IMG/VR virus record: IMGVR_UViG_3300019890_000009
Span: 1 to 45,846 of that record
Source of the DNA: a virus
Strand: one strand, 5' to 3'
DNA length: 45,846 nucleotides
A model generated the notes under the pieces. The model was not told where the DNA came from, did no database searches, and worked only from the letters and a program-made list of their open reading frames with translations. Positions 1,781 to 45,846 of the stretch are shown in pieces (the first letter of the stretch is position 1; each line of letters begins with the position of its first letter). The position numbers were made by a program, and so were the translations under genes.

Positions 1781-2995
1781 ATGCCGGATATTCCGGAACT
1801 GGCGGACTCCCCGCCCGAAGTGGACGATGACGCGCTGTACGGCTGCGAACACTGCGAACGTGCGTTTAGCGATGAGGATAACCTAGTGTCCGTCCGCGTC
1901 AGCTATCGGGGCACTCGCCGCCACGATACGCGACTCGTCTGCGATCGCTGCCGATGGCAGTGTGCAGATTGTAGCGAGGAATTTTTGGACAACCTAGACT
2001 ACGGCGGGAATAACACCGATGGCGATGGAGTCTGCGAATCATGCTCGGAGAACTACTTCTATTGCGAGAGCTGTGGCTGCACAAACCATAATGATCACTG
2101 TGCGGACGATTCCCTATGTGACTCATGTGCGGATGACCTCGATGAGAATGCGGACGATGGGAGTACGCATGAAAATGGGTATCCACGAGCGCCAAAGATC
2201 ATCAATAACTACTCCTACAAGCCGCGTGCGGTACTCACGCACGCCATAGATGAGACTGTATCGACGATGACGCCATACTTCGGCGTTGAAATTGAAGCAG
2301 AGAGTACGGGTAGCCACGATCGGCATGAATCAGTTACCGGAGCAATTGCGAAGCAATGCACGCGCGGATTTTGGTACGCCAAAGATGACGGTTCGCTCGA
2401 CAACGGGGCGGAATTCGTTTCGCATCCCGCAACTTGGAAATTTTGGAGCACTGCGGCGTTGCCGCATTTCGAATATCTTCAGTTGCAAAGGTGGCGAAGC
2501 TACAACACGACAACGTGCGGGATGCACGTACATATTAGCCGAACCGCGTTTAGCAAGTTCGGCATTGTGAAGTTAATGCGGTTTTTCCGCAACAACGCAC
2601 AATTGGTGCTCGCACTGTCGCGACGTGAAAGCAAGGTCGCCCTAGATAGGTACAGTGCCGTTGATACGGCGGACAACCACGGTATCACGTACAAGGTGAA
2701 AAAGCCTAGTTGGGGTCACGCGGAACGGTATGCCGCGATTAATCTGGAGAACGCGAACACTGTTGAAATACGGGTATTCCGCGGAACTTTAGACGCGGCG
2801 GGAATCCGCAGGAATATCGCCTTGTGCTACGCCCTTGTCCACTTTGTTCGTTGGGCGGGATTGCAGCAGCTTACCGCGAAGCATTTCGCAGGATGGTTGC
2901 GTGGCAACGGGCGATTCCTGCTAGGCAGGGAACATGGCGAACCCCTTATCAAGTGGGTAACCCAGCAGGTGAAGCCGATTGATAAAGACGCATAA
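1781..2995 (+). CDS. Zinc-finger amidoligase (COOH-NH2 ligase fold)
   Basis: Predicted ATP-dependent ligase that joins an amine to a carboxylate (Amidoligase_2 type, glutamine-synthetase-like fold). Residues 20-120 hold a row of CxxC knuckles (CEHC, CDRC, CADC, CESC twice, CDSC), which should bind several zinc ions. The catalytic part starts near residue 167 with FGVEIEAES, followed by DDGSLDNGAEFVSHP (about 202-216), CGMHVHIS (about 246-253) and RYAAINLENANTVEIRVFRG (about 316-335), matching the family's E-x-E, D/E-F, H-x-H and N/E-x-R pattern. It starts 4 bases after the small Cys-rich frame. A GC-rich hairpin follows the stop. The substrate is unknown; modification of a protein or peptide is plausible given the knuckles and the downstream amidotransferase. 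Confidence 0.82.
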   Translation: MPDIPELADSPPEVDDDALYGCEHCERAFSDEDNLVSVRVSYRGTRRHDTRLVCDRCRWQCADCSEEFLDNLDYGGNNTDGDGVCESCSENYFYCESCGCTNHNDHCADDSLCDSCADDLDENADDGSTHENGYPRAPKIINNYSYKPRAVLTHAIDETVSTMTPYFGVEIEAESTGSHDRHESVTGAIAKQCTRGFWYAKDDGSLDNGAEFVSHPATWKFWSTAALPHFEYLQLQRWRSYNTTTCGMHVHISRTAFSKFGIVKLMRFFRNNAQLVLALSRRESKVALDRYSAVDTADNHGITYKVKKPSWGHAERYAAINLENANTVEIRVFRGTLDAAGIRRNIALCYALVHFVRWAGLQQLTAKHFAGWLRGNGRFLLGREHGEPLIKWVTQQVKPIDKDA

Positions 2996-3005
2996 GGTGT
3001 TCGAT

Positions 3006-3031
3006 TCCCCGCATGTAAATGCGTGCGGGGA
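3006..3031 (+). terminator. GC-rich hairpin after amidoligase gene
   Basis: TCCCCGCA (3006-3013) pairs with TGCGGGGA (3024-3031) around a 10-base loop, 10 bases after the stop. An inner alternative CGCAT/ATGCG also exists. No U-tract follows, so it may be an RNA-stability or processing hairpin rather than an intrinsic terminator. Confidence 0.5.
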
Positions 3032-3097
3032 TTCCATCATCTTAGACGGGTAGTTCGATTAACAGTGCCCCAATGGGGCGGAAAAGAGTAGTGTCCT

Positions 3098-3379
3098 ATG
3101 TTCGCATCTGATTCTCTCATCGCGTCGCAGCTCGCCGCACAGAATGCCCTGACAACGGAGCACAACGCCGCAATGGACAAGCTGAAAGAGTCGCAAGTCG
3201 CGAAACTTCGCGGCGAGCTCACCAGTACGCGGTACGCCAAGCGCTCGCTTGCGAAGCTTGCCAGCGTCATCAACGAAAGCCCCGCGAGGACGGAAAACTT
3301 ACTGGCGGTCATTCACGCCAATAAGTCTGTCGGACGCCGCACGGGCAAGAGCTATTACAGCCGCTACATCACGCTGTGA
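3098..3379 (+). CDS. Small basic helical protein (93 aa), function unknown
   Basis: ATG at 3098 preceded by GGAAAAGAGTAG, the same style of leader as its neighbours. The protein is helical throughout (LIASQLAAQNALTTEHNAAMDKLKESQ...) and ends in a basic, aromatic tail (RRTGKSYYSRYITL). No family is recognised. It sits between the amidoligase and the glutamine amidotransferase, each separated from it by a hairpin, so a substrate or partner role in that pathway is possible but unproven. Confidence 0.65.
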   Translation: MFASDSLIASQLAAQNALTTEHNAAMDKLKESQVAKLRGELTSTRYAKRSLAKLASVINESPARTENLLAVIHANKSVGRRTGKSYYSRYITL

Positions 3380-3382
3380 ACT

Positions 3383-3407
3383 TCCCGCCCGCTAATAACG
3401 GGCGGGA
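3383..3407 (+). terminator. GC-rich hairpin after the 93-aa gene
   Basis: TCCCGCCCG (3383-3391) pairs with CGGGCGGGA (3399-3407) around a 7-base loop, 3 bases after the stop. It is very stable but is followed by TGTTCCTAG rather than a U-tract. Confidence 0.55.
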
Positions 3408-3456
3408 TGTTCCTAGCGAATAGGTCGCAAGGAAAGAGAAAGAGAGTAGATGAGTT

Positions 3457-4440
3457 ATGTGCTTGATTGCATATCAACCGGCAGGGGATGAACCTTTTGC
3501 CCGCGAGATACTGGAGAACGGGTGGGATGCGAACCATCACGGGGCGGGATTTATGTTTGTGGCCGATGGAAAGCTCCAAATCCGCAAGCCGTTTCGCAAG
3601 TTGAAAGAGTTGATTGCCGAATATTCAAAGGAACATACGGCACATGGGGCAACATCGGCTTTTTGCATCCACTTTCGATGGGCGACGCACGGCAGTAGCG
3701 ACGTGGTGAACATTCATCCGCATATTCTGGCCGATGGACAAGCGGGGCTTGTCCATAACGGGATTCTGCATAACTTCGACCCGCCCAGCGGGAAGGACTT
3801 GTCCGACACCGCGTGGTTCTGCCGTACCGTACTGGCCGGGCGAACACCGCAGCAGCTTACGTCGGTGGACTTCGGTTGCGTTCTCGCCGAGATGATCGGC
3901 AAGAATAATAAGTTTGTACTAATGGCCGCCGATGGATCGGCTATTATTGTGAACCCCGCGAGCGGTGTTTATGAGGGAAAGCGCTGGTTCTCCAACACGT
4001 CGCACCGCCAATACAACGGCGGCATGACCACGGGCAGCGGTACAATCGCAAGGGGGTTGGTTCTGCCACCCGCCGGAAAGCGAGAGCGAAAACGAAAGTG
4101 GGAAAGCCGCAACGCCGACTTGCGAGCACTCCCGCAGCACTACTTATCGGACGAAGAAACATTGTCTATCGACGCATGGGATGATTACCGAGAGGCGGAC
4201 TCTCTCGACTTGAACATTGACCCGCAGGCGTTGTGGGATAGCCTGGTCATCGAAGATCGCAATACGCTGGAGGGGCTATACGATAAAGCCATTGATGAGC
4301 TAATTGCGGAATCTCGCGAAATGCCGGCGGGCACTAACGCCGACTGGGACTTGATGGATGAAGCCGCATGGCGTATGGCACGAGACTGCTACGTGCAGAG
4401 TCACGAACAGAACTTGGAGCTTGCCGCCGACGCGGAATAA
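3457..4440 (+). CDS. Class II glutamine amidotransferase (Ntn hydrolase)
   Basis: Predicted to hydrolyse glutamine and deliver ammonia or an amide. Removal of Met1 would expose Cys2 (MCLIAYQPAG), the Ntn nucleophile. Other family signatures are HFRWATHG (about 72-79), the glutamine-binding stretch before IHPH, and LVHNGIL (about 98-104, oxyanion Asn-Gly). Residues 170-190 have the WFSN-like strand of stand-alone phage versions. The C-terminal 100 residues are acidic and helical with no known domain, and no synthetase domain is fused. A purine-rich GAGAGTAG leader precedes the start. Its likely partner is the amidoligase 0.5 kb upstream. Confidence 0.82.
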   Translation: MCLIAYQPAGDEPFAREILENGWDANHHGAGFMFVADGKLQIRKPFRKLKELIAEYSKEHTAHGATSAFCIHFRWATHGSSDVVNIHPHILADGQAGLVHNGILHNFDPPSGKDLSDTAWFCRTVLAGRTPQQLTSVDFGCVLAEMIGKNNKFVLMAADGSAIIVNPASGVYEGKRWFSNTSHRQYNGGMTTGSGTIARGLVLPPAGKRERKRKWESRNADLRALPQHYLSDEETLSIDAWDDYREADSLDLNIDPQALWDSLVIEDRNTLEGLYDKAIDELIAESREMPAGTNADWDLMDEAAWRMARDCYVQSHEQNLELAADAE

Positions 4441-4477: not shown

Positions 4478-4548
4478 TGCACTGTCGTCTAATGGTAGGA
4501 CACTTGGCGTAAGGCCGAATGATGCGGGTTCGATTCCCGCCCGTGCAT
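4478..4548 (+). tRNA. tRNA-like element, Gln/Glu-type body with odd anticodon loop
   Basis: Acceptor TGCACTG/CCGTGCA pairs except at the sixth position. The D arm GTCT-AATGGTA-GGAC and T arm GCGGG-TTCGATT-CCCGC are textbook. The 17-base anticodon arm CTTGG-CGTAAGG-CCGAA has a mismatch at its outer pair and G instead of U at position 33; reading 34-36 gives TAA (Leu), which does not suit this short-variable-arm body. No CCA is encoded. It may be a degenerate tRNA or a mimic. Confidence 0.6.
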
Positions 4549-7878: not shown

Positions 7879-8083
7879 CACTGTGGGCCTGCCCGCCAAT
7901 CCTGTGTTCGTCGTTGAATATGGGTACGGCGGTCGCAAAGGAAAGATCGTCGGCGAGACCGCCCGCAACGGGCGGGGGATGTGGGTCGTGCAGTTCGAAG
8001 ATGGGACGATGCCCAACCGAACGTGCTTTATGAGTTCCTGTTTCTCAGACAAGAAAGTTGCGGACATAGCCGCAGGGATATGA
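7781..8083 (+). CDS. SH3-like small protein (100 aa)
   Basis: ATG at 7781 follows AAGGA at good spacing, so the 98-base overlap with the previous gene is probably real. Residues 1-35 are Pro/Ala-rich; residues 40-90 (VFVVEYGYGGRKGKIVGE, GMWVVQFEDGTM) look like a small SH3/KOW-type barrel. Function unknown. The stop overlaps the next start. Confidence 0.5.
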   Translation: MLDPTRPPSFKPPALAVAASAPTISTAPASVISTVGLPANPVFVVEYGYGGRKGKIVGETARNGRGMWVVQFEDGTMPNRTCFMSSCFSDKKVADIAAGI

Positions 8084-8709
8084 TGTACTACAGCCAACAC
8101 GGTGAAGATGCGTGGATCGTGGAGAACCTGGAGCTCCCGCAACTAGGGTTCTTCGTTGAAGTGGGGGCGTTCGATGGGGTGAACCTGTCGAATACCAAGC
8201 ACTTCGAAGACAAAGGGTGGCTGGGTCTGTGCATCGAAGCCGACCCGCGATCGTGGGTGCCGCTGCTCCGCAACCGCAAGTGCCAGAACTTCCTGGGTGC
8301 GATCGACGTCGATCGTGGTTCGCTGCCGTTCGACTGCGTCGCCGAGCCGAGTCATTCCGGGTTCGACCGTAACGGGTCGTCCCCTTTGGGCAGCGGCAGC
8401 GTCATCAACGTACCGACGTTGCCTTTGGGTGTGGTGCTCGACGCGTACGGCATTAGCGAGATCGATCTGCTTAGCATCGACACCGAGGGCACGGAGATCA
8501 ACGTGTTCTGGAGCGGCCATTTCGGTGGACACACCGGCCGGTACGCCGATGCCTCGCACGGTCGCCCTTGGCCGAAGATCGTCATCGTTGAGTGGGAGAC
8601 CGCCGGCCTGCCAAGCAATGAGCAGAAGCTGATGGAATTCTTCTCTCGGTATCCGTACTCGCTGGTTCATCGCAACGAAGGCAACCTGATCTTCAAGTAC
8701 CAAGCATGA
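8080..8709 (+). CDS. FkbM-type SAM-dependent methyltransferase
   Basis: Begins MMYYSQHGEDAWIVENL, followed by FFVEVGAFDGVNLSNTKHFEDKGWLGLCIEADP (about 20-55), the typical SAM-binding start of the FkbM family, and DLLSIDTEGTEINVFW (about 127-142), where the Asp closes the site. FkbM enzymes methylate hydroxyl groups of sugars and other small molecules. The start is at ATGATG behind AGGG, overlapping the previous stop. Together with the late glycosyltransferases it points to modification of sugars on phage or host surface. Confidence 0.82.
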   Translation: MMYYSQHGEDAWIVENLELPQLGFFVEVGAFDGVNLSNTKHFEDKGWLGLCIEADPRSWVPLLRNRKCQNFLGAIDVDRGSLPFDCVAEPSHSGFDRNGSSPLGSGSVINVPTLPLGVVLDAYGISEIDLLSIDTEGTEINVFWSGHFGGHTGRYADASHGRPWPKIVIVEWETAGLPSNEQKLMEFFSRYPYSLVHRNEGNLIFKYQA

Positions 8710-15329: not shown

Positions 15330-15403
15330 ACGACTGTAGCCCAATGTAGAGGCACCGCGATACAAAGCGGCCAAGCTGCGGGTTCAATCCTCGCCAGTCG
15401 TCC
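15330..15403 (+). tRNA. tRNA-like element with 8-base anticodon loop
   Basis: Perfect 7-bp acceptor ACGACTG/CAGTCGT, D stem GCC/GGC, T arm GCGGG-TTCAATC-CTCGC with one G-U. The anticodon stem is only CCGC/GCGG with the 8-base loop GATACAAA; if the T is U33 the anticodon is ACA (Cys codon UGU). The variable segment is 7 bases. No CCA is encoded. It lies in the 97-base gap between two rightward genes, so RNase P/Z cleavage there would separate their messages. Confidence 0.55.
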
Positions 15404-45632: not shown

Positions 45633-45738
45633 TATTCAAACTCCGAAAAATCCTGTCGAACTCCGCGCCGTATCTGGCTTGATCCACACGACGATATGTG
45701 TCGCCTTTGCCGGCGTCGGAATGGAAAGTCTTTGGCAT
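45505..45738 (-). CDS. Conserved small protein overlapping two other genes (77 aa)
   Basis: Begins MPKTFHSDAGKGDTYRRVDQ and continues ARYGAEFDRIFRSL, a pattern I associate with small phage proteins (D-x-G-K-G-D-x-Y ... Y-x-x-x-F-D-R-I-F). The remaining 38 residues lie in an alternative frame of the glycosyltransferase gene and look low in complexity. The start lies inside the membrane-protein frame. It is either a true overlapping gene or the sign of a frameshift. Confidence 0.45.
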   Translation of the reverse strand: MPKTFHSDAGKGDTYRRVDQARYGAEFDRIFRSLNSEHEGLDCGRSEPGPGSQAGAPAGTGESDGCDYSQDAERSDS

Positions 45739-45846
45739 GTTGCTTCCAGCGCTCGGCGGTCTCATGAACCTGCTGGCTGCTGGGCCGCTCGGCCCCGTCC
45801 CACCCGGCCAGTCCACCCTTCGGCACGCAAGCCCATAGCAGGCCCC
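45632..45846 (-). CDS. Small membrane protein, C-terminal part (5' end beyond the window end)
   Basis: Continuation of the membrane-protein frame at bases 1-170; bases 45720-45846 duplicate bases 1-127. The final 28 or so residues are arginine-rich and low in complexity and coincide with another frame (45505-45738) that looks better conserved, so the functional part may be the membrane segment and the first 35 residues after it. The TAG stop shares its last base with the GTG start of the next gene (TAGTG), suggesting coupled translation of the glycosyltransferase. Confidence 0.5.
   Translation of the reverse strand, partial: GLLWACVPKGGLAGWDGAERPSSQQVHETAERWKQHAKDFPFRRRQRRHISSCGSSQIRRGVRQDFSEFE
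45720..45846. repeat. Terminal direct repeat (assembly overlap), right copy
   Basis: Exact copy of bases 1-127. The ends cut through a leftward reading frame that is continuous only after circularisation (170 to 1, then 45719 to 45632), so the join is real. Confidence 0.93.

Follow-up and report, generated by a model that had tools for sequence, protein, structure and literature searches.

What does a virus do with an amidoligase and a glutamine amidotransferase of its own? IMG/VR virus record IMGVR_UViG_3300019890_000009, analyzed here over all of its 45,846 nucleotides (nt; the window), raised this question with a gene for a zinc-finger amidoligase that is followed by one for a class II glutamine amidotransferase (GATase), a gene for a basic protein of 93 amino acids (aa) lying between them (Table 1). 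A first-pass annotation, made from the sequence alone, had read all three as one block that might ligate ammonia or an amine from glutamine to a protein, possibly the 93-aa product itself, and had considered the purpose of the block open. The three open reading frames (ORFs) were confirmed where it had placed them. Comparison with viral and bacterial relatives revealed that the ligase and the GATase are a near-obligate unit and that mobile elements carry this pair broadly. On balance we favor a two-subunit enzyme that would use ATP and glutamine to convert a carboxylate to its amide.

Table 1. Features of the ligase-GATase locus (positions in the window)
Feature	Position (nt)	Strand	Remarks
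Zinc-finger amidoligase, Amidoligase_2, glutamine-synthetase-like fold	1781..2995	+	404 aa; PF12224, phrog_16683, structure model, Foldseek
Cys-rich N-terminal region of ligase, LIM/treble-clef-like zinc fingers	1844..2134	+	aa 22-118; Cys/CxxC counts, LIM matches
Ligase catalytic core	2276..2815	+	aa 166-345; motif residues invariant in 87/87 relatives
GC-rich hairpin after ligase gene, without T-run	3006..3031	+	z -6.1
93-aa basic protein, lineage-specific passenger between ligase and GATase genes	3098..3379	+	homolog at matching position in sister contig L008
GC-rich hairpin after 93-aa gene, without T-run	3383..3407	+	z -5.0
Class II (Ntn) glutamine amidotransferase	3457..4440	+	327 aa; Met-Cys start; Cys2 nucleophile; helical C-terminal tail
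GATase catalytic domain	3457..3996	+	aa 1-180; predicted local distance difference test (pLDDT) mostly above 90

Two predicted catalytic subunits

The ligase matched PF12224 (Amidoligase_2; E = 3.1e-6, 27.7 bits against a cutoff of 22), phrog_16683 (5e-29), and phrog_2443 ("amidoligase enzyme"), with a weak match to TIGR02050 (YbdK/glutamate-cysteine ligase), and PF12224 was likewise matched at E ≤ 0.01 by all 55 aligned relatives. When its AlphaFold model (pLDDT 78.6) was compared with solved structures by Foldseek, all ten matches with E ≤ 0.001 were carboxylate-amine enzymes of the glutamine synthetase (GS) fold: GS itself, Dop, PafA, YbdK and a YbdK homolog, and the gamma-glutamyl-methylamide synthetase GmaS. 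Within the catalytic core, G168-x-E170-x-E172, D203, S205, E211, H249-x-H251, and E329-x-R331-x-F333 were invariant in all 87 relatives; the ExE, HxH, and ExR among them are what we take to be metal- and nucleotide-site signatures of the GS-like fold. Invariant motifs and a GS/YbdK/PafA-like match of the predicted fold are consistent with the ATP- and metal-dependent ligase that had been proposed, and no loss of the putative ligands was seen. The likeness to YbdK/glutamate-cysteine ligase, GS, and PafA/Dop is one of fold and motif pattern; these enzymes have other substrates and, to our knowledge, no GATase partner gene.

The zinc-finger part of the first-pass assignment was borne out as well. 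Fourteen cysteines and six CxxC motifs precede the core, the family profile of this N-terminal region matched LIM domains, and LIM matches were also obtained in four relatives. At least eight cysteines with at least three CxxC motifs were present at the N-terminus in 42 of 51 ligases.

For the downstream gene, the identity as an N-terminal nucleophile (Ntn)-type GATase is settled despite a Pfam match below the cutoff (GATase_6, E = 0.0023), because the NCBIfam glmS models (2.4e-14 and 1.1e-13), the GlmS glutaminase domain profile (4.8e-11), and the fold match of its model to the GlmS glutaminase 1xff (1.9e-7) all agree; phrog_25883 (7.5e-16) and the EgtC fold were matched too. Cys2, His72, Arg74 (within an RWATHG motif), His87, and His100-Asn101-Gly102 were kept in 85 of 85 sequences and Asp117 in 83 of them, such that the N-terminal Cys nucleophile of a class II GATase occurs together with the Arg, Asn-Gly, and Asp of the glutamine site. 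Fold and active-site residues are those of the GlmS glutaminase domain and EgtC, but the protein in the window is a stand-alone subunit accompanying a GS-fold ligase, whereas the glutaminase of GlmS is fused to a sugar isomerase. Its helical C-terminal tail holds a single Cys, in contrast to the Cys-rich zinc ribbon (at least four Cys with at least two CxxC) found in 45 of 50 relatives. Both subunits bore zinc fingers in 37 of 50 ligase-GATase pairs.

Near-obligate linkage of ligase and GATase genes

Viral contigs yielded at least 546 relatives in a search with the ligase profile and 409 with the GATase profile, and bacterial genomes another 344; the best 80 loci of each set were examined. A GATase gene adjoined the ligase gene in 79 of the 80 ligase-retrieved viral loci (78 downstream and 1, L049, upstream), and the contig of the remaining locus (L081) stops 59 bases past its ligase gene. 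Conversely, a ligase gene lay upstream of the GATase gene in 77 of the 80 GATase-retrieved loci, the three exceptions starting at a contig end with no room for one. Among bacteria, the two stood side by side in 76 of 80 loci. They usually overlap by their start and stop codons or lie within 15 nt of each other (gaps are mostly -10 or -1 nt in the GATase-retrieved set, in which no fused ORF was found), and no other gene was shared as widely among the relatives' loci. Such near-universal adjacency is not due to chance, since no more than 24 of 50,697 phage records matched the ligase. The distance matrices of the two proteins were also correlated (Mantel r = 0.81 over 116 nonredundant pairs), with none of 999 permutations reaching as high a value. 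The first-pass annotation had proposed co-occurrence elsewhere as a check, and the two genes were together almost without exception; its one block stands as far as this pair goes.

Several named phages share the arrangement. In mycobacteriophage Marvin, gp105 and gp106 are a ligase with 10 cysteines before its core and an adjacent GATase, and, as in the window, no cassette genes of the kind described below are annotated alongside them; the ligase is 29% identical over 68% of the query and the GATase 31% identical, and the Marvin GATase retains the Cys-rich C-terminus that its counterpart in the window does not. Methylophilales phages MEP401/402 and podovirus ctgrD200 likewise open their early region with the adjacent pair (ligase 26 to 29% and GATase 30 to 32% identical), but there the genes touch or overlap without a 93-aa gene. 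The pairs of these phages have been reported as an amidoligase with a GATase (PMC10580990).

What stands out is how tightly two genes are linked in mobile elements across very different hosts. Phages of actinobacteria and proteobacteria carry the pair, as do clostridial mobile elements and many uncultivated aquatic viruses. Its bacterial copies were mostly in Clostridia, and the flanks fetched for 53 of 80 loci included a gene for a recombinase, integrase, relaxase, or excisionase. This broad carriage by mobile elements fits a function that helps the element in its host. A literature search for amidoligases on integrative elements returned nothing relevant.

Two observations concern copy number. 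Butyricicoccus pullicaecorum DSM 23266 has at least five separate pairs on different contigs (L107, L118, L142, L156, and L158), probably on several mobile elements. In loci L059, L119, L122, L123, and L152, two ligase genes lie near a single GATase gene, which suggests duplication of the ligase, perhaps with different substrates.

Proposed reaction

The chemistry proposed in the first-pass annotation, in which ammonia from glutamine or an amine is ligated, is still the most likely one, as predicted from the residues and folds. The GATase would hydrolyze glutamine to glutamate and ammonia by means of Cys2, which would become N-terminal upon removal of Met. The ligase, judged by its fold and its invariant ExE, HxH, and ExR, would bind Mg-ATP and phosphorylate the carboxylate of its substrate, and attack by ammonia on the phosphorylated carboxylate would give a carboxamide; alternatively, a small amine or an amino acid may be transferred in place of ammonia. 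The zinc-finger domain of the ligase, and in most relatives that of the GATase as well, would dock the complex onto a partner or target.

Several points weigh against this amidating enzyme. TM-scores in the Foldseek comparison were low (0.26 to 0.34, for a multidomain query with large root mean square deviations), and a sequence-profile search with the ligase core found no credible relative among solved structures. The metal and ATP ligands are putative, having been assigned by motif. Linkage of the genes indicates a shared pathway but falls short of proving that the proteins form a physical complex or channel ammonia. In the window, moreover, translational coupling of the pair is lost, because the two genes are 461 nt apart with the 93-aa gene and two strong hairpins between them. 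Finally, our literature search found no biochemical test of the zinc-type ligase-GATase family.

Relation to the phiEco32/LUZ24 cassette

The purpose of such genes is less open than it had first seemed: phage amidoligases with GATases were predicted in 2009, a prediction that PMC10580990 credits to Iyer et al., and peptidoglycan modification has since been proposed for the phiEco32/LUZ24 cassette (PMC5498523, PMC10580990, PMC11945000), the gene list of which is given in PMC3890496. The core shared with phiEco32, LUZ24, and tf consists of two early-region genes, one for an Amidoligase_2 protein and, after it, one for a class II GATase; both are of the same superfamilies as in the window, where they are neighbors in the same order but with the 93-aa gene between them. 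The corresponding genes are phi32_84 and phi32_83 in phiEco32 and tf_21 and tf_22 in tf, and both phages also carry a COOH-NH2 ligase, an ATP-grasp ligase, and a gamma-glutamyl cyclotransferase (GGCT). The window differs in having the core pair only: a Pfam scan of its gene calls revealed no COOH-NH2 ligase, ATP-grasp, or GGCT, and phmmer searches of the window with tf, phiEco32, and StenR_269 queries found no further cassette genes. The ligases are also remote from each other, that of phiEco32 scoring about 20 bits against the zinc-type profile and that of tf falling below the threshold; neither has the CxxC-rich, zinc-finger N-terminus of the ligase in the window. The GATase is shorter, with 327 aa compared to 531 in tf.

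A tie between the two kinds of locus was nevertheless found among relatives. An ATP-grasp ligase related to phi32_80 of phiEco32 lay within about 2 kb after the pair in 44 of the 80 GATase-retrieved loci, apparently of marine phages, which ties the zinc-type pair to the phiEco32 peptide-modification cassette. The same ligase was missing from all 80 ligase-retrieved viral loci and all 80 bacterial loci, and GGCT was seen in a few loci (L059, L200, L202, and L211). Because these genes accompany only part of the loci, the pair forms the core and the remaining cassette ligases are optional additions. An amidoligase with a GATase, often annotated within a peptidoglycan-modification cassette, is thus of a kind already known. 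What is new is a distinct subfamily with zinc fingers at the N-terminus of the ligase and usually also at the C-terminus of the GATase, its stand-alone form, the window genome and clostridial mobile elements carrying the pair with none of the other cassette genes, and the extent of the pair, including its presence on bacterial mobile elements.

Small genes without a Pfam match recur between the GATase and ATP-grasp ligase genes of the marine loci (for example, L237:4918-5301 and L183:3219-3548).

Candidate substrates

The substrate most likely belongs to the host, as a molecule that favors an incoming mobile element once it is amidated. The specific candidates below divide up the substrate question; their probabilities cut across that of the amidation mechanism and are not to be added to it.

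Among single candidates, the peptide carboxylates of peptidoglycan precursors come first and a host or phage protein second. By analogy with the cassette, and with the same chemistry as that proposed above, the pair may act on the peptide stem, amidating or ligating onto its D-Glu or meso-diaminopimelate (meso-DAP) carboxylates, and thereby exclude superinfecting phages or remodel the wall; we make this assignment tentatively. AsnB/LtsA-type enzymes with class II GATases amidate meso-DAP in some bacteria. The ligase-then-GATase order shared with phiEco32 and tf, the published cassette hypothesis, and the ATP-grasp ligase after the pair in the marine loci, with GGCT in a few, all argue for this substrate. 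They have to be set against the lack of the remaining cassette genes in the window and the distance from the phiEco32 and tf ligases, with their missing zinc domain; moreover, a soluble UDP-precursor would give no obvious need for zinc docking domains. The minimal pair makes the wall-modification hypothesis of 2009 testable, because single substitutions would kill both active sites and the genes stand alone.

Zinc-finger recruitment is central to the next candidate, in which the pair would amidate or aminoacylate a host protein (for example, in a transcription, translation, or defense complex) or a phage protein. We regard this as possible, if somewhat less likely than the wall. Most pairs have zinc fingers on both subunits, which points in this direction, as do the early-region position in the window and in other phages, the occurrence of the pair in phages and mobilizable elements of very different hosts, and the presence of the protein-acting PafA and Dop among the best fold matches of the ligase. 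The match to PafA, however, was no better than those to the small-molecule enzymes GS and YbdK, and no third protein was conserved that might be a dedicated substrate; in particular, no small gene recurs beside the ligase across diverse relatives, as would a dedicated precursor of the type known from ribosomally synthesized and posttranslationally modified peptides. That phages and mobilizable elements use the zinc-finger-docked pair to amidate some host macromolecule that is not peptidoglycan, as a general tool of takeover or counterdefense, seems a speculative proposition of much the same standing, and it is with similar reserve that we suggest a protein or nucleoprotein target recognized by the paired zinc fingers. 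Should the target lie outside the wall, mobile elements would be modifying their hosts in a new way.

Amidation of a small molecule, a nucleotide, or a DNA base, yielding for example an antidefense metabolite or a hypermodified base, appears unlikely. Most characterized GS-fold and GATase-coupled enzymes do act on small molecules, and phages use GATase-coupled enzymes in base modification. Yet no thymidine- or guanine-hypermodification genes were among the Pfam matches of the window, none of the known antidefense families was matched, and domains for zinc-mediated docking would rather suit a macromolecular substrate. PADLOC profiles of antiphage defense systems found no match among the proteins of the window or of L008, and three unconvincing single matches among the ligase cores of relatives.

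The 93-aa protein as the substrate, an option raised in the first-pass annotation, is very improbable: its gene does lie between those of the pair in both the window and L008, with 45% identity between the products, but it was not found with any other pair examined or in the 50,697 phage records, most pairs being directly adjacent with no room for it, and a protein found only in the window lineage cannot be a general substrate.

One further locus had been considered as evidence against a peptidoglycan target and was set aside. L089, a Lokiarchaeota contig with the pair, resembles a bacterial-type phage and may be misbinned; the neighbors, read from their translations, include genes for a DnaB-like helicase, a single-stranded DNA-binding protein, and terminase-like proteins.

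The 93-aa gene and the gene borders

The basic nature of the 93-aa protein was apparent from a net positive charge (Lys and Arg counted against Asp and Glu). Its ORF is a real gene, because a homolog with 45% identity over 67 aa is encoded at the same place in L008 (positions 1606-1827). No relative was found in the other ligase-GATase pairs examined or in the 50,697 phage records, and for this reason the protein was rejected as a third member of the system: the block is a pair and not a trio. The search for the trio in other phages that had been suggested accordingly gave a divided result, the pair being near universal and the full trio being found only in the window and L008.

A third strong GC-rich, perfect hairpin, also without a T-run, borders the pair at positions 1662-1689, and all three hairpins are possible RNA-processing or Rho-assisted ends. 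A leader containing AGAGTAG, which differs from a standard Shine-Dalgarno sequence, occurs at positions 1291, 3086, and 3444, shortly 5' of the starts of the ORFs at 1306, 3098, and 3457, and is common to these three.

Genome context

A 127-bp direct repeat at both ends (positions 1-127 and 45720-45846) makes the virus record look complete, with a genome of about 45.7 kb. Its phage genes include those for DNA polymerase A, a primase, a Sak4-like recombinase, a metallophosphoesterase, and a terminase. The ligase-GATase pair lies near one end of the record, upstream of the replication genes, and because of this position it is probably expressed early. Single-protein searches of viral contigs with the ligase, the GATase, and the DNA polymerase of the window found no close relative, indicating that the lineage is sparsely sampled.

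Directly after the GATase gene lies a tRNA gene (positions 4478-4548; 41 bits in Rfam) that was called as Leu(TAA); the base before its anticodon is G where U is usual, which makes its decoding doubtful. A second tRNA-like gene (15330-15403) was reported by ARAGORN with an undefined anticodon and without confirmation by Rfam. The DNA polymerase gene is preceded by a gene for an FkbM-type methyltransferase (7981-8709), unusual cargo for a phage that is apparently kept in L008 (5016-5585) and that could also modify a surface molecule of the host or the phage.

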